A stretch of DNA of 26,467 nt from a virus, in IMG/VR virus record IMGVR_UViG_3300033141_002324, positions 1 to 26,467 of that record. One strand, written 5' to 3'. Every line of letters starts with the position of its first letter. The stretch's first letter is position 1. The notes under the pieces were generated by a model, which did no database searches, had not been told where the DNA came from, and saw nothing but the letters and a program-made list of their open reading frames with translations. The translations under genes were made by a program, and so were the position numbers. Below, piece after piece: positions 9,854 through 26,467 of this stretch.

Positions 9854-11595
9854 TGGCTCCAAGAGAACCAAGGAAAGAGTTAGAACCAAAAGACTGGATT
9901 AGAGAAATAGATTTAGGGATTGAGTTCAGAGAGAAGGTTGGGCAGTCGGGGAATTGGGCAAAGTATAACAAATACTATTGCGGTGATTTTAAAAAAAATC
10001 TTGTTCCGGTTAATCTGATTTTTGCGAATGGGAAAATCCTGGTTCCTAAATGCTATTTCAGAAACCCAAGAGTTAAGGTTGTTGCCAAACACCCGAAGGA
10101 CTGGTATGCCTCACGAATAACCGAGGCGATGGATAATCACCTTATTAAAGAACTGCGGATGAAATGGGTAATGAAGAAAATGATTGAGGATACCTACGTC
10201 ACAGGGATTGGGTTTAATAAACTTGGCTTTGATTCCGAGTATGGGTTTCCGCCGGACACAGAGGAAGATACTACCGTGGTTACAGAGGAAGGGCTGGAGA
10301 GAAATATCGAGTATAACGTAAATATCAAACGGGGATTTCCCTGGCTTGGAAGGATTGAACCGCCGGACATTATTGTTCCTTGGGGGTCTGTTTCTTCTGG
10401 TGACCCTGAAATAACTGGTATCCCCTGGATGGCACACAGATTCGTCAGGCATATTGACGATGTAATTCAAGACACGAAATATGAAAAGAAAGCAATAAAA
10501 GAATTGAAAGAGAAGGGTGGGACTCGCAGGCCTGACATCGAGTACAGCAGGGGCAGTGAGCGGGAAGAAAATTTAGACTATATAGAGATGTTTGAAATCA
10601 AGGATTATGCGACAAATAAAATCTATGTGGTGGCAAGAGAGTTTGAGAACTTCTTTATAAATCAGGATGACGAATTACAGATTGACGGGTTCAACTATAC
10701 CAGGCTGGTTTTTAATACTCATCCCCAATATTTTTGGCCTATCTCTGATATTAAGAACCTTGAACCGCTACAGTTATCATTGAATCTGGCGTTTACCATT
10801 CTTGACAGGCATATAAGGCTTGCGCTTAAAAAAGTTCTGGTGCAGAAAGGAACGGTTGAGTCAGCCGAACTTGATAAGCTGACCTCTGATGTAATTGCGG
10901 CAGCTGTTATGACTAACGGGAATCCGAACGAGTGCGTGAGAGATTTTAACATTACTGTACCCCAGGAACTGTTTCAGTATATCAATGAGTGCAGAAAGAC
11001 GTTGAGAGAACTTGTGGGATATTCAAGGAATGAGGCAGGCGAGTTTGACCAGTCAAGCAGAAGGACTGCAACGGAAGCCAAGTTTGTGAAGCAGGGGTCG
11101 GAAACAAGGTCGTCTGAAAGAAGGGATCAGGTTGCAGATGTATTTGAGAGAAACATTGCGAAAATGAACCAGATTATTTTTACTCATTGGACGGCAGATA
11201 AACCTCAGGTTGTGAGAATAATAGGGGAAGACGGTGTCCAGTATTGGGTAGAATATACAGGGGAAGAGATTAAGGGAGAGTATGATTTAGTGATTAATGC
11301 AGAGGAAGCGCAACCAGTTGACAGCCAGAAGATGACAGAAGATGCGCTGGCACTTTTACAGAACATTGCACAGGATGAAGATTTTAGTCCGGAGGAAAGA
11401 AAGAATGTTAAGCGGGCACTATATGCACAATTCGCTCACCTTGGCTTTGATTTGGAGAAGGCTCTTGCCCCGAAAGAAGGGATGGGCATGAATCCGGAAC
11501 AGCCAGTACCAATGAGAGAATGGGCTAATGGTATGGAAAAGGGCAAGAAGGATGTTGCCATGAAAAAAGCACAGGCGGGGAAACAAGTGGCATGA
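9853..11595 (+). CDS. Portal protein
   Basis: 580 aa. This ring at the capsid vertex is the channel for DNA entry. Evidence: length, position between TerL and scaffold/capsid, an N-terminal KDWIREIDLGIEFREKV segment, the central EPPDIIVPWG and the wing-like region, a long helical portion around LNLAFTILDRHIRLALKK, and a C-terminal part NRxR-type RRTATEAKFVKQGSETRSSERRDQV typical of podovirus-like portals. Start ATG overlaps the preceding stop (TAATG). The acidic C-terminus (ALALLQNIAQDEDFSPEE) fits the family. Assembled with TerL during packaging. Good confidence on the family from context and pattern. Confidence 0.85.
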   Translation: MAPREPRKELEPKDWIREIDLGIEFREKVGQSGNWAKYNKYYCGDFKKNLVPVNLIFANGKILVPKCYFRNPRVKVVAKHPKDWYASRITEAMDNHLIKELRMKWVMKKMIEDTYVTGIGFNKLGFDSEYGFPPDTEEDTTVVTEEGLERNIEYNVNIKRGFPWLGRIEPPDIIVPWGSVSSGDPEITGIPWMAHRFVRHIDDVIQDTKYEKKAIKELKEKGGTRRPDIEYSRGSEREENLDYIEMFEIKDYATNKIYVVAREFENFFINQDDELQIDGFNYTRLVFNTHPQYFWPISDIKNLEPLQLSLNLAFTILDRHIRLALKKVLVQKGTVESAELDKLTSDVIAAAVMTNGNPNECVRDFNITVPQELFQYINECRKTLRELVGYSRNEAGEFDQSSRRTATEAKFVKQGSETRSSERRDQVADVFERNIAKMNQIIFTHWTADKPQVVRIIGEDGVQYWVEYTGEEIKGEYDLVINAEEAQPVDSQKMTEDALALLQNIAQDEDFSPEERKNVKRALYAQFAHLGFDLEKALAPKEGMGMNPEQPVPMREWANGMEKGKKDVAMKKAQAGKQVA

Positions 11596-15206: not shown

Positions 15207-15596
15207 ATGAAATGGAGACAAAATGGCAAGATGATGGAACCAGAAAAACCAATGGTTTGTTCTAATTGCGGCACACCAATGATTTTAAGGTGGAGTAAGC
15301 TGTCGACTCACGGAGATATATTTCGAGAGGTAGCCAGAAGAGAAAAGAATGGCGAAGATATGTCAGAGGCAAGAGCACTCTGGAACGGGAAAAAGAGCAA
15401 TCTCAGTTATGTAGATGACCAAAGGTGGAAATGTCCGGACTGTCACTTTACTATTATGTTTGGTATCCCCATTTCATTTGACCAATATTGGGAATTATAC
15501 AAAGCAAGAGGAAAGTTTAAACAGTATCAACCCATTGAACAATGGCTTGAGGACGAAACTATTAAACAACGGCTTCAGGATTTAGGTTATTTCTAA
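15207..15596 (+). CDS. Zinc ribbon-like protein, first of a paralogous pair, 129 aa
   Basis: ATG 15207 with AGGAGCGAAAT upstream. Two CxxC knuckles: C18-S-N-C21 and C76-P-D-C79 (in W-K-C-P-D-C). Then FGIPISF and the C-terminal block PIEQWLEDETIKQRLQDLGYF. It aligns over its whole length with the next protein (R-W-S-K, the CxxC pair, FGxP, P-I-E-x-W-x-x-D-x-I-K-x-R-L-x-x-L-G-Y), so the two are tandem duplicates. Family not recognised; zinc binding is strongly suggested. Confidence 0.7.
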   Translation: MKWRQNGKMMEPEKPMVCSNCGTPMILRWSKLSTHGDIFREVARREKNGEDMSEARALWNGKKSNLSYVDDQRWKCPDCHFTIMFGIPISFDQYWELYKARGKFKQYQPIEQWLEDETIKQRLQDLGYF

Positions 15597-15610
15597 CAGA
15601 GGAGCGAATT

Positions 15611-16012
15611 ATGTGGAAACTAACTAAAAACGGTCACGAACCAACAAGTCCATTATGGTGTCCTATTTGTAAAATGAGGGGGCATGATAAAGAAATGGTG
15701 TTAAGGTGGTCAAAAATTCAACCCCATGAAGATATTGCAATGGAGTTGTTTTTTCGCAGGCCAGATAACGAGAGGTCAAAATATTTGTTATCAATCTTTG
15801 ATGAAGTAGAAATGCCATCATGGGTAAATGATATGGCATGGAAATGTCCGACATGCGATTACTGGTGTGTGTTTGGTGTCCCAATGAAAAAAGAGGATGC
15901 TGAACGCATAAGAAAAGAAGAAAGAAATGGGTGTACTACCTTCGTTCCGATTGAGGAATGGTGGCAGGATGCCATTATAAAAGACAGGCTCAGAAATCTC
16001 GGCTACTGGTAG
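15611..16012 (+). CDS. Zinc ribbon-like protein, second of the pair, 133 aa
   Basis: ATG 15611 follows AGAGGAGCGAATT, nearly the same ribosome site as its paralogue. CxxC pairs at C17-P-I-C20 and C79-P-T-C82, then FGVPMKK and IEEWWQDAIIKDRLRNLGYW. Identity to its neighbour is moderate and spread along the protein, so the duplication is old. Both lie within the head gene block, between the decoration-like protein and a small protein. Confidence 0.7.
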   Translation: MWKLTKNGHEPTSPLWCPICKMRGHDKEMVLRWSKIQPHEDIAMELFFRRPDNERSKYLLSIFDEVEMPSWVNDMAWKCPTCDYWCVFGVPMKKEDAERIRKEERNGCTTFVPIEEWWQDAIIKDRLRNLGYW

Positions 16013-16281: not shown

Positions 16282-16974
16282 ATGACACTGAGAGCTTCCT
16301 TCGTTACGAATGTGCTGGCAACTATTGATAAAAGCGGTACCACTTCCTACCAGGGGGTAACGCTTGAAACGTTAGCGCAGAACGCTTATGCAACAACTTT
16401 GAGGCGGCTGGCAAGGCAAAGGAATTGGGCTGACTTGCTGGACGAGGATACGTCCACTACTACAGTTGATGGGACTGAAACGGTTTCTTTGCCTGGTCTT
16501 ACCAATCGTATATTCAAGGTAATATGGGAAGATGGCAGTAATAGTAGCATCATAGTTGGCAAATCGGCCAGATGGTTTGATGCCAGATTCCCTTATCCTT
16601 CCAGTTTAGGAACAGCTGTCCCTACCTTTTACAAGAGAGTTGGCTCAACCCTTACTCTTGCACATCCCCCTAATGCAGCAAAGACATTAAGAATATTCAG
16701 AAGTATCTGGCCTACGGCTGATGGAACAACTGAGTGCCAGCTACAAAATATGGATGATGTAATTGAAGCTGGTATGGTTGCAGAATTATATCATAAGCTG
16801 TCGCTGGATTCAGAGGCAAATACATGGTGGGCAAAGTTCAAGCAGGAACGGGATGAGGCGTGGGCAAATGATAGCAACAATCCTGATATGTGTGTTGTAG
16901 CGAAGCCTTTTGGTGGTGAAGCACCATATTCAGGGGAATACTGGAAAAACCCCTTCTATTCACAGGATGATTAA
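16282..16974 (+). CDS. Probable head-tail adaptor protein, 230 aa
   Basis: ATG 16282 follows ACGGAGGTGTGCC. N-terminal helices (LASFVTNVLATIDKSG-like start, then ETLAQNAYATTLRRLARQRNWADL) are followed by a beta section with SLPGLTNRIFKVIWEDG, a Tyr/Pro-rich turn and a C-terminal helical part ending in aromatic residues. This is the pattern of podovirus adaptor proteins that extend the portal (P22 gp4/T7 gp11-like arrangement). Assignment rests on layout and fold pattern, not on a strong match. Confidence 0.55.
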   Translation: MTLRASFVTNVLATIDKSGTTSYQGVTLETLAQNAYATTLRRLARQRNWADLLDEDTSTTTVDGTETVSLPGLTNRIFKVIWEDGSNSSIIVGKSARWFDARFPYPSSLGTAVPTFYKRVGSTLTLAHPPNAAKTLRIFRSIWPTADGTTECQLQNMDDVIEAGMVAELYHKLSLDSEANTWWAKFKQERDEAWANDSNNPDMCVVAKPFGGEAPYSGEYWKNPFYSQDD

Positions 16975-16975
16975 A

Positions 16976-18781
16976 ATGAAAGAACTGAAACAGTTATCTA
17001 AATGGGAAATTCTCTTTGGTGTAGGCGTAGTTCTATTGTTTGTATCGCTTATGTTGCACGTCTACTTTAAGCCTATCTATCCGAAATCCACGCTGGATGC
17101 CATGAAGCAGTTGACCGAAGGAAAGACTGCTTATGCTTTCTTCTATGATAAAGAGCCGATGGGGACGCGGAGTATAAAAGACTCTGACCAGATTATAAGG
17201 GCAAATGAACATAGTCTGTATCTTCACTTTAGTGTAGAACACAATATGACACCTGCTACTTATTCTGGTTCTACCAGCTATGGTGAGTCTGGCGATTATG
17301 GGCATCATAAGGAAGGGTCTGCAAGGGTAACGTGGAGTGCAGAAGCACCTGCATCTGATGAAGAAGGCAGGGTGTGGGTTGATGAAGATACCTATATCGT
17401 TCAGGTTGCTGATTCGGGTCAAGTATGGCGAAACATGACAACGGCAGAAGTGGTAAGTGCAAGGGGTTCTGAGTCTGATTTAGATGCCCGTTTAGATGTG
17501 GAGTTAAATGAAGATGGTACGTTAAAAGATGCCCTGCCTGAATCTGGCGGCACAATGACTGGTAACATCAACATGGGTGGATATAGGGTGCTTATGGCGG
17601 CTACACCGCCTACTTCTGGCAGGGAGTTGGCAACAAAGTCCTATGCGGATAGCATTGTTGGTGCTGGTGGACTTCATGCTGCCTCTCATACAGATGGAAC
17701 GGATGATATTCAAAATGCCACTAATTCTCAGAAGGGTTTAATGACTGCGGCTCAGGCCACAAGTCTTGAAGCTAGTATTATTGTGTATCAACCAAAAAAT
17801 TATCTTAGTGGTTCTGTGACAGACGGTATCCAAGAGGCTATTGATGCCGCTCATGCTGCTGGTGGAGGGACTGTGTGGTTGAGTGCTGGCCATTACACTA
17901 TTGATGTTGATGTTGATTTATACTCAAATATTATTGTGGCTGGTGATGGATGGAGTACTGTAGTACAAGCAACCTCTACTTCAACACTCGACCTTGATTT
18001 GGAAGGGGATAGTGGAATTGATACGTCTGTGGCTACTGCAACAATTAATACGTCCCTTGTAGATTTGACTACCACAGCAAGTGCAGGAAATTTTAGTGCG
18101 GGCGATTTAGTCCGTATAGGTAATACGAGTGGATATAATGATTGTTCTTGGTATATTGTAGAAAGTACTTCTGTTAGCGATGGATATGTTAATTTTGGGT
18201 CTAATCTTCTAATGACCTATGATATTACCCCAACGATGGAGATAGTAACTCCCCTAGAAGGTGTTGTCATTAAGGATATTAGTTTTAAAAATGTGCGTGT
18301 TCATGGCAATTTGGCTTCTGAAAATAGTATAGAAAACTGTAAGTTTGATGTTACCTCGGATGAGGGGATATTCTTTGAATACAGTGTTAATAATTTTATT
18401 ACTGGGAATACATTTTATGATTGCGGCGATCACTCAATATATCTAAGTAGAGTAACGGGTTCTTATGTGGCTGGCAACAAGTTCTACGAGGTAACTGGTG
18501 CTGCCATATATGCTAATTATGGATGGCTAAACAATGCGAGTAATAATGTTATTCGTGGTTCTAGTTCTCGCGGGATACGATGGGCATTGAATGATTATGG
18601 TACTATTTCAAACAACCTGATAGAGTCTATTGTTGGAGACGCTATATGGTTGACAAACACTTCCACGTCCAATAGTATTGTTGGCAATTCTTGTCCGCTT
18701 GGAGTAATAGATAATGATAGTACACATAATAGAGGTGCAGGAAATGTTTACTCTACTTGTGAAGATTGTACTTGGAATTAG
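16976..18781 (+). CDS. Membrane-anchored tailspike with beta-helix, 601 aa
   Basis: ATG 16976 is preferred because AGGA (16964-16967) gives correct spacing; ATG 16967 is in frame 9 bp earlier. Residues 11-31 form a hydrophobic helix (EILFGVGVVLLFVSLMLHVY) after a basic start, a membrane anchor or uncleaved signal. Residues 163-265 are tail-fibre-like (GGTMTGNINMGGYRVLM, ELATKSYAD, SQKGLMTAAQ). From 280 on a pectate-lyase-3-like right-handed beta-helix begins (DGIQEAIDAAHAAGGGTVWL), with repeated rungs such as VAGNKFYEVTGAAIYANYG and a Cys-rich end. Phage beta-helices often bind or cut surface polysaccharide. The N-terminal membrane segment is unusual for a virion protein. Confidence 0.85.
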   Translation: MKELKQLSKWEILFGVGVVLLFVSLMLHVYFKPIYPKSTLDAMKQLTEGKTAYAFFYDKEPMGTRSIKDSDQIIRANEHSLYLHFSVEHNMTPATYSGSTSYGESGDYGHHKEGSARVTWSAEAPASDEEGRVWVDEDTYIVQVADSGQVWRNMTTAEVVSARGSESDLDARLDVELNEDGTLKDALPESGGTMTGNINMGGYRVLMAATPPTSGRELATKSYADSIVGAGGLHAASHTDGTDDIQNATNSQKGLMTAAQATSLEASIIVYQPKNYLSGSVTDGIQEAIDAAHAAGGGTVWLSAGHYTIDVDVDLYSNIIVAGDGWSTVVQATSTSTLDLDLEGDSGIDTSVATATINTSLVDLTTTASAGNFSAGDLVRIGNTSGYNDCSWYIVESTSVSDGYVNFGSNLLMTYDITPTMEIVTPLEGVVIKDISFKNVRVHGNLASENSIENCKFDVTSDEGIFFEYSVNNFITGNTFYDCGDHSIYLSRVTGSYVAGNKFYEVTGAAIYANYGWLNNASNNVIRGSSSRGIRWALNDYGTISNNLIESIVGDAIWLTNTSTSNSIVGNSCPLGVIDNDSTHNRGAGNVYSTCEDCTWN

Positions 18782-19052
18782 TTTGCTATTTGTGAGTTTA
18801 TCCTTTGCAGAGCCGTTTTACGAGCAGGAATACACAAATGCAAAGGTAACAATAGAGATATGGCCAATAAAGAACACTTGGTGGAACATTGCGAATATGC
18901 CTTTGTATGTCATAACTTGTTTTGTTGGGACAAGGACAGATGGTGCGGTTGAAACCATTATACTAAAATCTATACCTTTAGAGTTTTATATTTGGTCAAT
19001 AACAACGGGCACAACAACCACAACCATGAAGAACTATGCCAGAGATAACTGA
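18744..19052 (+). CDS. Exported small protein, 102 aa
   Basis: ATG 18744 (GAGGTGCAGGAA upstream) lies inside the end of the tailspike gene, 38 bp overlap. Residues 1-21 form a classic signal peptide (MFTLLVKIVLGISLLFVSLS with cleavage after SFA). The mature part is beta-rich with two Trp and one Cys and ends in TTTTTMKNYARDN. Not recognised. An exported protein here is more typical of a host surface or periplasmic product than of a phage tail. Confidence 0.65.
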   Translation: MFTLLVKIVLGISLLFVSLSFAEPFYEQEYTNAKVTIEIWPIKNTWWNIANMPLYVITCFVGTRTDGAVETIILKSIPLEFYIWSITTGTTTTTMKNYARDN

Positions 19053-19323
19053 ACAGGACGTAAAGAGAATAATTCAGGAAGAATTAAGAAGGTTTCAGCA
19101 TAATGACTTGATGGATATGCCACAGCAGGGGCATGTGAACCGTGACCATGATGGCAGGTATCATAGAAAACATAACACTATTTATTTAGACATTGGAAGT
19201 GCGATTGTGTTTGGGGATCCAGGCACTAATGGTAATTTTAGGATTGTGATTCAGGGTGGTTATCTTGAGGTACAGGTTCGTGATAGTGGTGCTTGGGCTT
19301 ATCGTGGCAGGTGGGCACTTTAA
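19036..19323 (+). CDS. Small fibre-like virion protein, 95 aa
   Basis: ATG 19036 overlaps the preceding gene by 17 bp. N-terminal helix (MPEITEQDVKRIIQEELRRF), a His-rich segment, then a beta part with DPGTNGNFRIVIQGGYLEVQ and GAWAYRGRW; this last block is a common element at the end of phage fibre or fibre-associated proteins. Unlike its neighbours it has no signal peptide, so it would remain in the cytoplasm. Confidence 0.65.
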   Translation: MPEITEQDVKRIIQEELRRFQHNDLMDMPQQGHVNRDHDGRYHRKHNTIYLDIGSAIVFGDPGTNGNFRIVIQGGYLEVQVRDSGAWAYRGRWAL

Positions 19324-22300
19324 TAATGTGGGTGCGTATCAAGTGCCAACATTACAGGTTGATGATTTGACAAGTTGCCTTAATGTTCAGACTGATGCAG
19401 ATGGTGTGATGACTTGTGGACCTGCTGGAACTGGTGGTACGGGAAATATGACATGGCAGGTTTATGACACAGACCATAATGGAACGGTTGATTATTGTGA
19501 AGTTGCCTTAGATGTCCAATGCTCTAATTGCGTCGATGCCTCAGATGTGGCGGCAGATGTAGCTACTCAGGCTGAATTGGATGCTTTGGACTTAGATGAT
19601 GTCTGTGATGTAGGGAGTACGACTAATAATAGGATAACGGTAGATGGTGTTACTATTACAGATGGTAATGATTTAATAATGGATGATATGATATTAAGTG
19701 AATCTCAGGTTACTGTGGCAAGAACAATTAATTTCCCTGATGAGAGTGGGACTATTGTTACTACTTATAGAACGGGGAATATTTTTAATTCTCCTGACGA
19801 GGGAAATGTTTTAAGAGGAACAAAGAGTGGTAAGACGGCGTGGTCAAATGTTTTAGCTCTTGGAGTTGATGGACAAATAAGAGCGTCCAATATACAAATA
19901 AGAGGAGGAGATGAGGGCGATGAAGATGCATCCCTAGTACTATATGAAGGTGGTAGTGGAACAGAATATTATAACAGATTAATAGCTTCCAACCCAACTG
20001 CTTATCGTATTAACTATCTACCAGATGAAACAGGAACAATTCTAACAGATGCTTCCACTTCTCCTTGGGACTTGGATGATGTTTGTGATGTTGGGAGTAC
20101 GACTGACCAGGGTATAACTGTTCTTGATCTTGAAGTTTCTACTCCAAACGCAATTTATAACTTATCACATGACAGTTTTGCAGATTTCACAACCGCTGAG
20201 CATTTCACTATGTTAGATGAGGATATGTTATCATCTGATGATGCCACTAAGGCAGCCACACAACAAAGCATTAAGGCATACATAGCATCTGCCTCTGCTT
20301 CAATAGATGAGGCCGATGAGATTACTATGGAATATGCCACAAGTTCCTCCTATAATAACGTACAGGAATGGTCAAACATGGTTCAATCTGCTGGCTTATT
20401 GGTTGGGGGAACACTGTCTGATAATGGAGATGGTTCTCTTAGTGTGGCTGGTGGTTCGGGATTTGCGAAAACAACGGATTCTGAAACTGGTATCACTACA
20501 TTCATAACTTGGGCAACTGACAACTCCGTCTCTCTTACGGATAACGCAAAAAACACTGTGTATATTGATTATAATGGAGGAAGCCCCTTTGTTGAATCTA
20601 CCACTACTCCATCTGCCACCATTGATCACACAACCAAATTTCCAATTGGAGCAGTTTGGAGGAATGGAACAACCTTACATATAGTTAATGCAGGAACGAG
20701 GATATATAATTGGGCAAGGAGAGGGCATAGGAGAGCCAGGGAATTAAGGAAATATGAGAGGGCTAGTGGATTAGCATTATCAGAGACGGGGACGAGGAGT
20801 ATTGCAACAACTGCAGGGGTTGTGTATGCTGGTTATGATAGATTAACATTGGCAGAAGTTGATACATCCGATGGTGATACATTTACAGCTTATTATAGAG
20901 ATGCGGGTGATAGTTGGACAACGGTAGAGGATCAAACACAGATTGATAATGTAAAATATGATGATGGGGATGGGACATTAGGGGATGTTGCCAATAATAA
21001 ATATGGAGTACATTGGGTTTATTTAGACAATGATGGGCATTTACTTGTTCAATATGGACAGGGGAGTTATAAGTTGGCTGAGGCAATAGAGGCAGGAGTT
21101 CCACCTGCCCCAGAATACTTAAATGATTTTGCTATTATAATTGGCAAAATTATTATTTTGAGAGATGCACCATCCTTTACAAGTGTTTTATCTGCCTTTG
21201 TTACACAGTTTGAAATGAATGTATCTGTAAATCATAATGACCTTGGGGGGATACAAGGAGGAACAAATGATGAATATTACCACTTAACCTCTGCCGAACA
21301 TACTGGTTTTTTCAACAAAGACGTACATGATTCAGATGATATAACAGAAGGTACTTCGCATTATTTTGATGATGATGGAGTAGATGCTAACACTAATGCT
21401 GACACAGAATGTTCAGGAGATACTACTTATTATAGTGGTGAAGGGAATTGTAATGATTTAGATAATCAATATGTTGAATTAACAGATAGTGTTGGTGTCG
21501 TTGCAGATGTAGATACCACAACAGACCCACCAGAGCGGGATGATGTTTTGAAATGGAACGGCAATAATTGGGTAGCTGCTGCTTATGATTATTCATTTGT
21601 ATTTGATTTTGATACCTTTAGTGATGGACAGTCCTCACCACAGTTGCTCGGTAGTGGGATATGGAAAGATATTGGAGCTATTACTTTTACTGCCTCATAT
21701 TCAAACGGCCCACCTACAAGCTGTGTGATTACCATAGCGGGTGATTTTGATGGTGGAAGTGGAAGCGGTTGGACAGATGATGAACTGGAAATGGATGATG
21801 GTGATAAGACTTCTGAAAGCACAGATGAAGCCACTAACTACCCAGATGATTCAGGGGATACGATTTCATTTAATGCTGTAGCTGATACTTTAACTCCAGA
21901 TAGTAACGATTACCAGGTAACATTCTATAATTATTTTATTCATGATGACTTTGCTTCTAACAATGGGTTTGATGATGGTGATTTAGATACTATCGCAAGT
22001 GGGGGTACGCAGATTGTTACATCTGACCATACCAGAACATTTACTCAATCTATCGGTGATTCAAACTACTTAGTATTTGCTCATAGAAAAGCAGGGACAA
22101 CGGTAACTCAGGTAAGATGTGGTACAGACAGTAATGCCTTAACCGTTGCCATGAACAAGAATGATGCTACGGCAGTGACACCTTTAAAGGAAACTGTTAG
22201 CCACTCTAATGCAGCCAACAACCCTAAGACCGAGGATTTTTATGTCTATGCCAGCAAGGAACAAAATATAGATGCTCATTCGAGTTCGTTCACTACCCTG

Positions 22301-23026
22301 ACAAGCTCTACTGTCTCTAATTACCTAAGAGCAGGACTTGATGACCAAAACACAGGCTGGAGCAATGCAGATTTCTTAGCATTAACTTATAAATATGCCA
22401 GTACCTCAGATGAAACAAGAACAACTTCATCCTTAACCCCTGGGGCGAACGATTATCTTGTTTATATGTATCCTGATGGATGGGGAAATTTAACGGTTGG
22501 AACGGATTATGAAACCGATGGTCATGGTACATCTTTCTTGTTCGATGGCGTAACGGCAGCAATGGCCTATGAAGGACTTAATAACTGCACCAATGAAGTA
22601 GGCTTTCAGGATTCCTACAGAGTGTATGTGTCCACAGGCAAAGACTATGGTAGTGGGTCCGGGACTTTAGTTGGTGGTTCGGTACAAACTTTGAATCCTA
22701 TATACTATGGAAAAACAACCGATGCAAGTGGCTATAATGAGGCAGATGTAGAGGGATGTGCAAATTCCACCATTTCAAATGATTACACACAGGTATGGGA
22801 TGCAGTAACCCTTGGTTCGGGAGAATATGGATTATGGTGTTTCCCAAAGAGGATGGGGTCTAAGGGAGTTGAATATACGTTCTGGGATCATGACACGGGA
22901 TTTGGATTTGATTTTCAGGATGCTGAAACGGTTAGTGTAACAAACTACTCAAATTGGACTGAAGATTATTATGTGTATAGGACTACCAATTCTAATTTAG
23001 GAACTATTACGGTCGAAACGAAATGA
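19256..23026 (+). CDS. Large fibre protein with export signal, 1256 aa
   Basis: Start GTG 19256 gives a signal peptide-like N-terminus (MVILRYRFVIVVLGLIVAGG, possible cleavage before YQV); GTG 19280 or 19328 are later options. The protein is Asp/Thr/Ser/Gly-rich with Cys pairs such as QCSNC. It contains the twice-repeated DLDDVCDVGSTT (about residues 117 and 273), fibre motifs NDLGGIQGGTNDEYYHLTSA (about 660-680), AEHFTMLDED, and long beta-sandwich segments in the C-terminal third. These are typical receptor-binding fibre modules. It overlaps the preceding gene by 68 bp and the next by 4 bp. Confidence 0.8.
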   Translation: MVILRYRFVIVVLGLIVAGGHFNNVGAYQVPTLQVDDLTSCLNVQTDADGVMTCGPAGTGGTGNMTWQVYDTDHNGTVDYCEVALDVQCSNCVDASDVAADVATQAELDALDLDDVCDVGSTTNNRITVDGVTITDGNDLIMDDMILSESQVTVARTINFPDESGTIVTTYRTGNIFNSPDEGNVLRGTKSGKTAWSNVLALGVDGQIRASNIQIRGGDEGDEDASLVLYEGGSGTEYYNRLIASNPTAYRINYLPDETGTILTDASTSPWDLDDVCDVGSTTDQGITVLDLEVSTPNAIYNLSHDSFADFTTAEHFTMLDEDMLSSDDATKAATQQSIKAYIASASASIDEADEITMEYATSSSYNNVQEWSNMVQSAGLLVGGTLSDNGDGSLSVAGGSGFAKTTDSETGITTFITWATDNSVSLTDNAKNTVYIDYNGGSPFVESTTTPSATIDHTTKFPIGAVWRNGTTLHIVNAGTRIYNWARRGHRRARELRKYERASGLALSETGTRSIATTAGVVYAGYDRLTLAEVDTSDGDTFTAYYRDAGDSWTTVEDQTQIDNVKYDDGDGTLGDVANNKYGVHWVYLDNDGHLLVQYGQGSYKLAEAIEAGVPPAPEYLNDFAIIIGKIIILRDAPSFTSVLSAFVTQFEMNVSVNHNDLGGIQGGTNDEYYHLTSAEHTGFFNKDVHDSDDITEGTSHYFDDDGVDANTNADTECSGDTTYYSGEGNCNDLDNQYVELTDSVGVVADVDTTTDPPERDDVLKWNGNNWVAAAYDYSFVFDFDTFSDGQSSPQLLGSGIWKDIGAITFTASYSNGPPTSCVITIAGDFDGGSGSGWTDDELEMDDGDKTSESTDEATNYPDDSGDTISFNAVADTLTPDSNDYQVTFYNYFIHDDFASNNGFDDGDLDTIASGGTQIVTSDHTRTFTQSIGDSNYLVFAHRKAGTTVTQVRCGTDSNALTVAMNKNDATAVTPLKETVSHSNAANNPKTEDFYVYASKEQNIDAHSSSFTTLTSSTVSNYLRAGLDDQNTGWSNADFLALTYKYASTSDETRTTSSLTPGANDYLVYMYPDGWGNLTVGTDYETDGHGTSFLFDGVTAAMAYEGLNNCTNEVGFQDSYRVYVSTGKDYGSGSGTLVGGSVQTLNPIYYGKTTDASGYNEADVEGCANSTISNDYTQVWDAVTLGSGEYGLWCFPKRMGSKGVEYTFWDHDTGFGFDFQDAETVSVTNYSNWTEDYYVYRTTNSNLGTITVETK

Positions 23027-24483
23027 AAAGATTAATCATCATTCTTATACTTTTAATATGTGTACCTGTTTATGGAGATATAGAGTTAACAGGGAAAGTA
23101 GCTCCGAAAAACGATGGCTTTACGGGGATAGTGGATGCAAGCCAAGTATTAGGTGGAGGGGGTAGTGGAGTATTGCCAGATGCGTGTTTTGATGATGTAT
23201 GGATTAATGTAGATGGTGGCACTTTGGAGATACCAAATAGCACTTCTCTTCCAGCCAGTTGTAATGATGGCGAGATATATATGGATACCGATGCAACAAG
23301 TGGGCAACAGATATATGGTTGTGAAGGTGGTGCTTGGGTATTGCAAGGTGATGGCGGTGGCGGAGGTGGCGGAGATAATATTACTGTTAATGGTTCAGCC
23401 GCAGATACAACGGCTAATTTTAAAGACGGTGATATAGATTTTACTTTAGTTGATGGTGGAGCTGGTGGCCCTGATGATGTAACGGCTACAGTTGATTGTT
23501 CTGGTTGTATAGATGCAACGGATATGGGAACAGATAGTGTTAGTGCGGATGAACTAAATGCCACTGGTGTAGAGGCTGAATTAGAGGGTGTGATGGATTT
23601 ACAGGACATGCAAGGAGCAGTTACAGATGGGCAAGTTCCTAATGATATTACTATTGACTTATCAACTTTGGCAACAAACTTCACCTGTACTGATAATGAA
23701 TCTACAGATGAGAATAATACAATAGTTTTTGTTGATGGAGCTACTGGCTCGCAAGGAGCAGAGACAGATGGGGATTTTTATTATAACCCTTCAACTGGAG
23801 TGGTAACTGCAACGGGATTCGCTGGTGCGTTAACGGGGAATGTTACAGGTAATTGTTCTGGTTCTAGTGGAAGCTGTACTGGTAATGCTGCAACGGCAAC
23901 TGCCTTAGCTACTGATGGCACAGACTGTAATGCTGGTTATGCTGCAAGGGGTATTGATGCAAGTGGTAATGCTGAATTGTGTTTTGATGTATGTACCCAG
24001 GCTGAACATGATGCAGAGGATGAATGTAGTGAAATATCTGGGTGCTTAACAACTATTGATATTTCAGAAAATACCAATCTAACTGGTGGCAAGTATCTTA
24101 CCTTAACAGGTGATGATTTATTGTTGGATGAAAAGATAGCTACCGTTGGACATCATATTACATTGGAAGACCCAAGCACAAGCGATACAGCTATTGTGAG
24201 GTTGGCATGGGCGTATGATGTGTCTGTTACAAAAGTGAGTTGTTCTACCGACATGGGAACGGCTACAATACAGTTTGATGAACGTGGAGAAACAACACCC
24301 AATACTAGTGGGACTGATATTCTAAGAGCGGCCTTGGTATGTGATACCGATTCTCAAATGACTCTTGATTTTTCAAATACGGGGATAGCTGCTTTTTCAA
24401 CTGCATCAATGGATGTTGATGCTGTGTCTGACCCTGCTCCCAATCAAGTAATAATTCATGTATGGGTGGTGAAAGATGATTAA
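23023..24483 (+). CDS. Fibre protein with signal peptide, 486 aa
   Basis: ATGA overlap with the large fibre. Signal peptide MKRLIIILILLICVPVYG then mature DIELTGKVAP. Follows: a Gly-rich linker (GDGGGGGGGDN), a CSGC pair, a fibre repeat FYYNPSTGVVTATGFAGALT with GNVTGNCSGS and GNAATATALA (the tail-fibre 'TGNVTGN' module), many Cys, and a C-terminal beta domain. The Cys content suits disulphides formed outside the cytoplasm. It overlaps the next gene by 8 bp. Confidence 0.75.
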   Translation: MKRLIIILILLICVPVYGDIELTGKVAPKNDGFTGIVDASQVLGGGGSGVLPDACFDDVWINVDGGTLEIPNSTSLPASCNDGEIYMDTDATSGQQIYGCEGGAWVLQGDGGGGGGGDNITVNGSAADTTANFKDGDIDFTLVDGGAGGPDDVTATVDCSGCIDATDMGTDSVSADELNATGVEAELEGVMDLQDMQGAVTDGQVPNDITIDLSTLATNFTCTDNESTDENNTIVFVDGATGSQGAETDGDFYYNPSTGVVTATGFAGALTGNVTGNCSGSSGSCTGNAATATALATDGTDCNAGYAARGIDASGNAELCFDVCTQAEHDAEDECSEISGCLTTIDISENTNLTGGKYLTLTGDDLLLDEKIATVGHHITLEDPSTSDTAIVRLAWAYDVSVTKVSCSTDMGTATIQFDERGETTPNTSGTDILRAALVCDTDSQMTLDFSNTGIAAFSTASMDVDAVSDPAPNQVIIHVWVVKDD

Positions 24484-25588
24484 ATACATTCTTCTAATAC
24501 TACTATTTACTTCTACAGCAAGTGCTCAAAATATATTAGACGTGCCCACACAATTAAAGTGCATGAAGGAAAAAATCTTATTTCATAGAAAAATACCAGA
24601 AAGCAAGGTCTTTATACATAATGAAGTATCAAAGAAAATGGAAGAATGGAGTTTGCCCGAACATGTACATTATTTATATATCTCTGATAAGAGAGTTATG
24701 GATGAAAAAGGTGAGATTGTTTCTAAGAGAACCAAAAACGCGCGATTCTTTGAAGCGGGTAGAGCTATAAGTGGAAAACAGGAGTGGAAAGCTAAACTTT
24801 ACACAGGTGAACCATTTTATCATAATAAGGAATCAAACACATGGTATCTCACAGAATCAGATATGATTACACCAGGAGAATATGAGAGACAAACCAGGTT
24901 AAGTTGGTGGGAAAAATTGGGGATAGCTTATGCTGCCAGTGGTGACCCAATTTATTCAGGTGCAGGTGATGGTCATATTTATAGATATTTAGACTGTGGG
25001 TATGTTAATTGTTGGGATACCATCCACGATTACACATCTGGTACTCCAAACCATACTGGTAATAATCTTGAAGTAATAGCAAGAAATGATATGCACGGTT
25101 CTTACGAGTGGGAACATTGGATTTACAGAGGGTTCTTTCCAGTAGATACATCCGGCCTGCCAGATGATGCAAACATTACCTCTGCTACAATGAATTTGTA
25201 TTGTACTTATAAATTTGGTAGTTGGGAGTTTAGACTAGTTGAAGCTACTCAAGATTTAACATGGATGTTAAAAACTACTGATTATGATGAATGTGGTGCG
25301 GTAGATGACCCTACTGCTTTAGCAACTGATATTGCACTTACGGCAGGTCAATATAACGTATGGACGCTTAACCAAACCGGATTAGATTTAATTGATGTTG
25401 AGGGTTGGACAAAATTTGGATTAAGGGAATGGAAATTTGATGGAGATGACGTTGAGCCTGGGTACAATCAAGTTTCAAGGGGAACGTTTAGTTCCAGCGA
25501 GCGTGCAGGAACAGAACAAGACCCATATCTGGAAGTAGTTTATACGATTGGTGGAGAAGCAGCAGCAAGAAGGATAATGTTATATTAA
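24476..25588 (+). CDS. Exported surface-type protein with DNRLRE-like domain, 370 aa
   Basis: ATG 24476 overlaps the previous stop by 8 bp. Signal peptide MIKYILLILLFTSTASA with cleavage before QNIL. The first 130 mature residues are mixed alpha/beta and basic. The C-terminal half has YRGFFPVDTSGLPDDANITS and SATMNLYCTYKF, then W-x-L-rich strands and DPYLEVVYT, the layout of DNRLRE/disaggregatase-like jelly-roll domains found in secreted bacterial and archaeal surface proteins. Four or more Cys. Last gene of the fibre block. Confidence 0.7.
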   Translation: MIKYILLILLFTSTASAQNILDVPTQLKCMKEKILFHRKIPESKVFIHNEVSKKMEEWSLPEHVHYLYISDKRVMDEKGEIVSKRTKNARFFEAGRAISGKQEWKAKLYTGEPFYHNKESNTWYLTESDMITPGEYERQTRLSWWEKLGIAYAASGDPIYSGAGDGHIYRYLDCGYVNCWDTIHDYTSGTPNHTGNNLEVIARNDMHGSYEWEHWIYRGFFPVDTSGLPDDANITSATMNLYCTYKFGSWEFRLVEATQDLTWMLKTTDYDECGAVDDPTALATDIALTAGQYNVWTLNQTGLDLIDVEGWTKFGLREWKFDGDDVEPGYNQVSRGTFSSSERAGTEQDPYLEVVYTIGGEAAARRIMLY

Positions 25589-25599
25589 GGAGGAAGCAG

Positions 25600-25902
25600 A
25601 TGGCTGAAAAGAACGGCACTACGAAGCGGGTACTGATTAGTATTATTATTACACTTGGGACACTTCTTTTGGGATATAGCGTAACTTTTATCAGCTACAA
25701 CTATGCAGAGGATGCGAAAAGAGATGCCAGGATAGAGGAAGTAAAAAGGATTATTTCAACATGCAAAGAGGTTGATGCTACGCAGACCGCCAACATTGAG
25801 GCCATTAAGGATGACATAAAAGAAACAAAGGATGACGTAAAGACAGTTATGCAGGATGTCAGGGATATTAAGCATTTGCTCATACAGATAAACAGAAAAT
25901 GA
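25600..25902 (+). CDS. Spanin-like inner membrane coiled-coil protein, 100 aa
   Basis: ATG 25600 follows TAAGGAGGAAGCAG. One N-terminal transmembrane segment (about 11-33, VLISIIITLGTLLLGYSVTF), then a long helix with heptad-like charge pattern (ARIEEVKRIISTCK, IKDDIKETKDDVKTVMQDV). This is the architecture of Rz-type i-spanins or holin-associated proteins (XhlA carries its membrane segment at the other end). Next to the amidase it probably helps lysis. No outer-membrane partner is visible. Confidence 0.65.
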   Translation: MAEKNGTTKRVLISIIITLGTLLLGYSVTFISYNYAEDAKRDARIEEVKRIISTCKEVDATQTANIEAIKDDIKETKDDVKTVMQDVRDIKHLLIQINRK

Positions 25903-26012: not shown

Positions 26013-26197
26013 AAACAATAATCATAAACCTGATACTGAAAGCGTTACAAAAGGTTCTTACGCCAGATATGTTAAAGGCTATTGTGAAACAAGGGCTGGA
26101 AGCATTGAAAGAGTATGCGGCTGGGACAGAAAACGAGTTTGATGATAAGCTGGTTGCCTGGTTAGCTGATTTTATTATTGAGGCATTTGACCTTTAA
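26009..26197 (+). CDS. Small lysis-region protein, 62 aa
   Basis: GGGAGAGAAGAA precedes ATG 26009. A hydrophobic/amphipathic N-terminal helix (MKTIIINLILKALQKVL) and a second helix with WLADFIIEAF. Proteins of this shape sit directly before endolysin genes in several phages and may be antiholin- or holin-like, but there is no clear transmembrane span. Stop overlaps the amidase start (TAATG). Confidence 0.6.
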   Translation: MKTIIINLILKALQKVLTPDMLKAIVKQGLEALKEYAAGTENEFDDKLVAWLADFIIEAFDL

Positions 26198-26467
26198 TGA
26201 CTAAGCACAGATACATAATCATTCATCATTCGGCCACTAAGGATGGGGATGTTGTAGACTGGCAAGCTATCAGGAGGTATCACAAGTCTTGGGCGTATCA
26301 GGGGAAGATCATAAAAGAAGCTGATGCAAGAAATCTGATAGCAGAGGGGAAAGAAGTAAAACATCCTTGGTATGATACGGGTTACAACTTTGGCATTGAG
26401 AAAATCAATGGTGAGATAGAAACACTGGTTGGTAGGCCGCTAACGTTTGTTGGCGCTCATACTAAGG
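26197..26467 (+). CDS. N-acetylmuramoyl-L-alanine amidase (endolysin), 3' end outside window
   Basis: Amidase_2/PGRP family: cuts the bond between muramic acid and L-Ala of peptidoglycan. 90 residues are visible from ATG 26197 (TAATG overlap). First zinc His in YIIIHHSAT (H10, aligning with T7 lysozyme H17), a VDWQAIRRYHKSW helix, DTGYNFGIEKING, and the second zinc His in TFVGAHTK (H88, matching T7 lysozyme H68). The rest, including the third ligand, is beyond the edge. It shows the host has peptidoglycan. Confidence 0.92.
   Translation, partial: MTKHRYIIIHHSATKDGDVVDWQAIRRYHKSWAYQGKIIKEADARNLIAEGKEVKHPWYDTGYNFGIEKINGEIETLVGRPLTFVGAHTK

Follow-up and report, generated by a model that had tools for sequence, protein, structure and literature searches.

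The fibre and tailspike genes of an uncultivated tailed phage carry N-terminal signals of the Sec type, and we read these as part of a recurrent Sec-export route that fibre modules of such phages appear to follow. The genes occupy positions 16,976 to 25,588 of IMG/VR virus record IMGVR_UViG_3300033141_002324, of which a stretch of 26,467 nucleotides (nt; positions 1 to 26,467, hereafter the window) was analysed. The signals are present in the open reading frames (ORFs) and are lineage-specific, recurring with one internal repeat in other viruses and missing from most relatives of a neighbouring N-terminal module. The tagged fibre-like proteins, as we call those with such an N-terminus, probably leave the inner compartment of the host before the host bursts. 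The pattern extends well beyond the window, and its mechanism is open to testing.

RESULTS

Export signals in the fibre cluster

The window virus is a tailed phage whose head genes are of the P22 type, and its terminase, portal, capsid and adaptor genes precede the fibre cluster, which places the cluster in the structural module. A sequence-only reading of the window had located six ORFs here, five of them (601, 102, 1256, 486 and 370 amino acids [aa]) beginning with a basic n-region and a hydrophobic core, and both statements hold, as do the signal peptidase I (SPase I)-type sites that it named in three ORFs (SFA, VYG and ASA). As five export signals the set is less uniform: those of the 102-, 486- and 370-aa proteins are cleavable, that of the 601-aa protein is of the anchor type, and that of the 1256-aa protein hinges on a GTG inside a 95-aa ORF. 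The same reading had called Sec signals unusual for tailed-phage fibres, and the controls bear this out. Such fibres are expected to be made free of export signals; none of five known fibres and spikes of lambda, P22 and T7 is positive for a signal, and the cluster departs from that expectation.

The cluster opens with a 601-aa right-handed beta-helix, tailspike-like protein (16976 to 18781; features lie on the plus strand unless noted), which matches a PHROG tail spike family (4e-15) and Pfam NosD, Beta_helix and Pect-lyase in a scan that used a longer start at 16910, and which finds weak epimerase matches only when solved structures are searched by sequence. It begins MKELKQLSKWEILFGVGVVLLFVSLMLHVYF, with a hydrophobic segment at about residues 12 to 33; this segment is longer and has no SPase I-type (AXA) site, and is therefore better termed a signal anchor, which would hold the N-terminus in the membrane. 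The 102-aa protein that follows (18744 to 19052) has its own ribosome-binding site and a signal peptide, MFTLLVKIVLGISLLFVSLSFA, ahead of EP (predicted cleavage SFA/EP). The 95-aa ORF (19036 to 19323) is untagged, with no n-region or hydrophobic core. The 1256-aa fibre protein (19256 to 23026) is 27 to 35% identical to genes whose annotation is tail fibre or virion structural protein and falls in no PHROG family; if GTG 19256 is used, its N-terminus, VVILRYRFVIVVLGLIVAGGHFNNVGA, is signal-like and its ORF overlaps the end of the 95-aa ORF by 68 nt. Either gene of this overlap could have another boundary. The 486-aa fibre-type protein (23023 to 24483) starts with the signal peptide MKRLIIILILLICVPVYG (23023 to 23076) ahead of DI (predicted cleavage VYG/DI), and the 370-aa protein (24476 to 25588) with the signal peptide MIKYILLILLFTSTASA ahead of QN (predicted cleavage ASA/QN). 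For the 370-aa protein no homologue was found beyond the same virus, the sequence search of solved structures gave no match, and a single-sequence AlphaFold model reached a pLDDT of 31.6.

The 102-, 486- and 370-aa proteins have no PHROG family and no Pfam match above the cut-off. By our rule (below), these three, together with two ORFs of 118 and 162 aa farther downstream, possess an n-region, an h-region and small residues at -3 and -1. Inspected by eye, the three lack a lipobox with an invariant Cys at +1, their A or G sites being followed by E, D and Q, and no outer-membrane anchor or sorting signal was seen in the tagged proteins of the window, which gives no direct support to display on the host surface, one of three options in the sequence-only reading (beside gain of the fibres by the virion outside the cytoplasm and a new assembly mode). 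Besides distant domain matches, the only close relatives of the window proteins come from the same virus, at 100% identity.

Signals were scored with a rule of our own (not SignalP) that requires a best 10-residue mean hydropathy of at least 2.2 in an uncharged stretch, a net positive n-region and a core start by residue 22. It is positive for 5/70, 4/67 and 4/53 coding sequences of lambda, P22 and T7, respectively (13/190 in total); most of these encode envelope proteins, holins or spanins, and one, the T7 terminase, is a clear false positive. The same virus is represented by a 41,139-base IMG/VR contig (the 41-kb contig), relative to which the window is offset by 454 bases and in which the amidase gene is followed by the signal-bearing 118- and 162-aa ORFs and then by the gene for a virion structural protein of 605 aa, with more genes beyond. 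In a list of 28 genes of this virus, which is our own selection with small ORFs dropped, 8 are rule-positive, and all of these belong to a block of 10 genes that opens with the 601-aa and closes with the 162-aa ORF (8/10 versus 0/18 outside; hypergeometric probability, 1.4e-5). Three dropped ORFs outside the block are also positive (at contig 12565 on the minus strand, 39573 and 40143). A mechanical list of all 61 ORFs, which omits the overlapping 102- and 95-aa ORFs, gives 7/10 in the block versus 3/51 outside (Fisher, 2.8e-5), or 6/10 versus 3/51 when first starts only are considered.

Tagging of the SADEL repeat and the A1 domain

The 486-aa protein contains an internal 75-aa repeat (the SADEL repeat, A2; 23476 to 23700), which was chosen as the query because its mid-protein position says nothing about N-termini. 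The repeat is also present in L061 (loci and contigs are given by our own L and G numbers). The search returned 19 viral loci, which after merging of duplicates and removal of L076, whose ORF is cut at its 5' side, gave 16 assessable proteins, including those of the window and L061, whose tags we already knew of when the scan began. On inspection every one of the 16 shows a signal-like N-terminus, and 14 of the 16 are tagged under the uniform rule, which admits starts within 50 codons. Under the same rule the shared fibre domain A1 (residues 353 to 682 of the 1256-aa protein; 20312 to 21301) belongs to a tagged protein in 3 of the 22 distinct phages or viral contigs examined (the window, L014 and L017). 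This difference (Fisher, 7e-6; 12/14 versus 2/21 when the window and L061 are left out) indicates that export marks some fibre families and not others. The tagged start is internal to the longest ORF in L073 (by 57 codons) and in L078/L077 (by 242 to 243 codons); in L072, L080 and L082 the favoured start is not the first, and all three pass within 50 codons.

PHROG virion genes stand beside 11 of the 16 repeat carriers and also beside L014, L017 and L103; for L067 the virion evidence is a weak tail-fibre match only, and none was found among the few neighbours scanned of L072, L073, L074 and L080. In blastp comparisons L084 has portal and capsid genes in common with the window virus and some non-fibre genes are common to a few other locus pairs. 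For the majority of pairs the similarity is confined to fibre modules, which therefore seem to pass between viruses that are unrelated in other respects. The exported fibre proteins of L061, L073, L074 and L081 share modules at 50 to 85% identity over 30 to 100 residues, with no match among the other genes of these phages.

A bacterial origin of the repeat family was considered and rejected. A pattern-based genome scan found 3 stretches and 0 confirmed relatives for the 1256-aa query, and the repeat, scanned in the same manner across 84,980 species genomes, gave 159 stretches with 1 confirmed. The latter (L085) is a 14.5-kb contig of a Gammaproteobacteria metagenome-assembled genome, in which the fibre is signal-like at an internal start. 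It is possibly a binned phage contig. No cultured relative with tagged fibres was found among 50,697 phage records, in which tblastn searches with five tagged proteins (the 601- and 370-aa proteins and those of L061, L075 and L067) gave no match.

The N-terminal module and the two-gene fibre unit

Directly behind its predicted cleavage site the 486-aa protein carries the module DIELTGKVAPKNDGFTGIVDASQV (A3; 23077 to 23202), with which the predicted mature protein would start. A scan with this module found 12 independent viral loci besides the window virus. In 11 of the 12 the gene opens with M and one of A, P or S, immediately ahead of I..L, and has no signal; in the remaining one, L103, it begins MKKLLYLLFLLPISLWG followed by ADG and then the module. 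Two of the 13 carriers are thus tagged under the uniform rule. Judged from these starts, the signal of the 486-aa protein is an added part. Its predicted cut falls at the N-terminus of the untagged relatives, which cleavage would thus recreate. The 486-aa protein has partial matches to genes of immuto, marine virus AG-345-E15 and S-RIM8, and those of immuto and marine virus AG-345-E15 have untagged starts.

The sequence-only reading had left the matter to homologues, which answer it differently for the two parts of the protein: the signals are conserved among the repeat carriers and absent from 11 of the 12 other N-module loci, where the conserved start does lie downstream of the hydrophobic part. 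The tag nevertheless stays on the window protein, because all 16 assessable repeat carriers look tagged and there is no in-frame ATG, GTG or TTG between 23023 and 23131, the latter position being past the conserved core of the module. With no start codon in between, the signal must be translated with the module, and a start-site artefact is ruled out for the 486-aa protein.

In the N-module loci examined for it, which were all but L101, the adjacent upstream gene is a homologue of the last 500 residues of the 1256-aa protein. The C-terminal part of the 1256-aa protein (21458 to 23026) corresponds to the first gene, and the 486-aa protein to the second, of a conserved two-gene fibre unit. This upstream gene is untagged in 10/10 untagged loci with an assessable start, and in L103 it encodes a 272-aa protein with a clear signal, whose window counterpart is the 1256-aa protein. 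Either both genes of the unit are tagged (window and L103) or neither is (the 10 others), and the chance that the same two of 12 assessable loci would be tagged for both genes is 1 in 66 by our own arithmetic. Because the tags of the unit agree and the L103 homologue of the C terminus is tagged, the 19256 start is supported, short of proof. In L016 and L095 a capsid gene lies upstream of the untagged pair in the same locus. Identical contigs were counted once (L070/L071, L077/L078, L061/L068, L021-L025, L019/L026 and L092/L093/L097); L101 shares a contig with L056, and L102 with L016.

Tagged neighbours and cysteine content

Genes within three places of a tagged fibre are rule-positive in 32 of 88 cases, versus 5 of 136 around untagged fibres (Fisher, 1.3e-10). 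The tagged group of this comparison includes L014, L017 and L103, which stand outside the 16 repeat carriers and were picked because they are tagged; the untagged group was picked as untagged, so that only its neighbours serve as a control, and 2 of its 31 loci (L091 and L100) were not evaluable by the gene caller. Runs of tagged genes number three in L014, four in L075, four in L067, six in L074 and six in G019, while for 6 of the 19 tagged loci all genes up to three places away are untagged. Ribosome-binding sites precede many of the tagged starts. G019, the contig of L103, has head genes without a blastp match to the window virus at 1e-5 and yet resembles it in layout, with a capsid gene, a 170-aa gene, six tandem tagged genes, an endopeptidase, further tagged genes and a virion structural gene. 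It also encodes a tagged 927-aa protein (L106 5729 to 8512; G019 25729 to 28512) with an amidase match near its C terminus (phrog_5107, 3.5e-12) and a separate untagged endopeptidase beside it.

Tagged fibres contain more cysteine than untagged ones (median, 0.92 per 100 aa [n = 19] versus 0.37 [n = 27]; P = 0.001), also when the first 25 residues are left out (P = 0.006), which fits folding in an oxidising place. The earlier statement that several proteins of the cluster have many cysteines stands by density for the 486-aa protein (16 Cys, 3.3%) and fails for the 1256-aa protein (14 Cys, 1.1%), whose content is ordinary for this genome.

DISCUSSION

Export is the best reading of these data because the signals are real parts of the ORFs, are unusual for tailed-phage fibres and recur in other viruses. 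The fibre and tailspike module would be re-routed via the host Sec pathway: late in infection the precursors would be made and translocated across the inner membrane, signal peptidase I would cut the 102-, 486- and 370-aa proteins, and the 601-aa tailspike would stay anchored. Folding would then proceed outside the cytoplasm, where disulphides can form. Once lysis proteins break the envelope, the fibres could meet virions and attach to them as the last assembly step, through the N-terminal module that cleavage would have exposed. Export and cleavage are, from the signals and their distribution, very likely. Attachment to virions outside the cytoplasm is our first choice for what follows, at somewhat less than even odds; it is favoured by the intact N-terminal module past the cleavage site, by the untagged occurrence of the two-gene unit downstream of capsid genes in other phages (L016 and L095), and by the finding of no other fibre gene among the late genes of the 41-kb contig. 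For the last point, PHROG scans of the 605-, 346-, 443-, 385- and 890-aa late genes and family searches with PF13550 and phrog_1640 detected no tail fibre or spike outside the tagged block. The complete reading, in which the whole fibre and spike set would be Sec-exported, matured by signal peptidase, oxidised in the periplasm and joined to the virion outside the cytoplasm, with the switch made per fibre unit by gain of a signal and spread by a common pool of exported modules over uncultivated tailed phages that are otherwise unrelated, has by our estimate a probability of roughly one in three.

Several findings weigh against it. A GTG at 19328, just past the 95-aa ORF, would yield an untagged product of the 1256-aa ORF, so that the start of this protein is ambiguous, and the anchor of the 601-aa protein is not obviously removable. 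The cysteine effect is a modest one, and the 486-aa protein alone stands out in the window. In G019 the tag is not limited to fibres, since the tagged 927-aa gene matches an amidase family. G003 also has an untagged 1499-aa protein of the PF13550 tail-tip type, and G006 an untagged 568-aa protein with a phrog_1640 tail domain (which we take to be lambda J-like and T7-type genes, respectively); in phages with such a conventional gene, receptor binding need not fall to the exported proteins. The 41-kb contig has no end repeat of 20 to 299 bases and may therefore be incomplete, in which case an untagged fibre gene could be missing from it, and several of its late genes are without any family match.

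The conventional genes of G003 and G006 speak for the possibility that the exported fibre-like proteins are not virion parts, and act instead as envelope or extracellular adhesins that take up receptors of the infected cell or of its debris, keep out rival phages or, in the case of the 601-aa beta-helix protein, modify surface polysaccharide. LamG-type lectin and beta-helix domains in the tagged clusters would suit such roles. This alternative is a serious one, which we consider slightly less probable than attachment to virions: the N-terminal module and the two-gene unit are common to untagged relatives, with a capsid gene upstream in L016 and L095, no surface anchor was seen by eye, and no other recognised fibre gene was found in the window virus. 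A role in lysis or envelope disruption, with the fibre-type domains binding the cell wall or outer membrane, is suggested by the position of the tagged genes, which flank the amidase and transmembrane genes of the window virus and the endopeptidase of G019, and by the amidase match of one tagged G019 protein. It is nevertheless improbable, since the proteins reach 2234 aa and contain fibre-type repeats as well as beta-helix and lectin domains, and since the clusters of L075 and L078 lie between head-type genes and later tail-type genes; we know of no spanins or endolysins of such sizes and domains.

Less probable again are prophage-borne adhesins (morons) that would be expressed in lysogens and serve host fitness. 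Exported lectin- and fibre-type proteins would fit, and fibres with signal peptides exist in bacteria, as portions of a study of Bdellovibrio MAT proteins describe (PMC10769870). Here the genes share their strand and gene run with the late genes for structure and lysis, a single confirmed place for the repeat in a pattern scan of 84,980 species genomes is little for a lysogenic trait, and no integrase was noticed in the 41-kb contig, in which no search aimed at integrases was made. We give the lowest standing to chance hydrophobic N-termini or wrong starts, by which the true proteins would be cytoplasmic fibres starting downstream. The untagged homologues in 11 of 12 other loci, the overlap of the 1256-aa signal with another ORF and the two repeat carriers (L073 and L078) tagged only from an internal start speak for this account; it is very improbable in view of the missing internal start in the 486-aa case, the contrast between 14/16 and 3/22 under one rule, the clustering of tagged neighbours and the ribosome-binding sites before many tagged starts.

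Among known systems, the coat proteins pIII and pVIII of filamentous phages are Sec-exported virion proteins assembled at the membrane; these are unrelated proteins of non-tailed phages that are extruded without lysis. The superinfection-exclusion lipoproteins Llp of T5 and Cor of phi80 are likewise phage-encoded, exported and active at the envelope, and are small and not fibres. P22-type tailspikes (PHROG 2234) resemble the window system in the right-handed beta-helix spike, alongside a P22-type portal, an SU10-type adaptor and an amidase in the window phage; P22 gp9 itself is rule-negative, whereas the window spike has an N-terminal membrane anchor ahead of it. The untagged two-gene fibre unit of L016 and L090-L100 has the same pair, order and N-terminal module as the window, with signals on neither gene. 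To our knowledge, PblA and PblB of Streptococcus phage SM1 have no Sec signal. They are tail components that reach the outside of host cells, and their release takes holin and lysin according to passages of PMC7600539; in the present cluster, Sec signals are found on neighbouring genes. The chimeric MAT fibres of Bdellovibrio, likened to our proteins by description only, are phage-fibre-like proteins with N-terminal signal peptides and, directly after the signal, a conserved beta-rich domain of ~130 aa; they are cellular genes of the predator outside any phage structural operon (excerpts of PMC10769870).

Parts of a survey of diversity-generating retroelements (DGRs) report N-terminal transmembrane or signal segments in the majority of target families from cells, with viral target families of several clades annotated as tail proteins (PMC8144416), while the consulted portion of another study gives phage DGR target proteins without signal peptides (PMC6199706). 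Two rumen Bacteroides phages have two and one signal peptides, counted without naming of the proteins in the section concerned (PMC5723332), and in the text portions of PMC3338817 and PMC8143477 at hand signals appear only in methods and references. Within open-licence PMC papers, we recognised no description of signal-tagged tailed-phage fibre clusters.

The usual view of tailed-phage fibres is that their folding and assembly occur in the cytoplasm. If the proposed route is correct, the host-recognition proteins of some uncultivated phages would first traverse the envelope, which would change the site of fibre maturation, allow disulphide-stabilised fibres and open an unstudied step to superinfection exclusion or late assembly. 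The combination of a signal and the SADEL repeat offers a simple marker for finding such phages.

Other features of the window and its contig

Genes run from terminase through P22-type portal, capsid protein (phrog_9953), SU10-type adaptor, fibre cluster and a 100-aa transmembrane protein to the amidase, and the virion structural gene phrog_3287 lies downstream of the lysis genes. The SU10-type adaptor (16282 to 16974; Pfam PF24175, E = 1.4e-10) is untagged and rule-negative and forms the left edge of the tagged block. The 100-aa protein (25600 to 25902) has a single N-terminal transmembrane segment, is holin- or spanin-like by position and has a weak spanin match (0.015). The untagged amidase/endolysin (26197 to 26467) leaves the window and is complete in the 41-kb contig, at 175 aa. 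G+C content is 38 to 44% at the cluster versus 38 to 46% elsewhere in the window, and a foreign-cargo composition was rejected for want of a clear break there. The window differs from the 41-kb contig by 177 mismatches, all inside the first 235 bases of the window.

The left end of the window encodes a protein of tandem repeats of ~10 residues (30 to 818; NSSVEARGN/NSRVEAWEN), and a second repeat ORF stands at the right end of the 41-kb contig. Two adjoining CxxC-rich paralogues of 129 and 133 aa, 32% identical, lie at 15207 to 16012; a further CxxC ORF occurs at 11592, and L084 also has one beside its portal gene. The 443-aa protein of the late module (L036 11271 to 12602; contig 31271 to 32602) has 14 Cys and repeated CPxGxRWDxxxxxCVP-like motifs, with no signal and no PHROG family.

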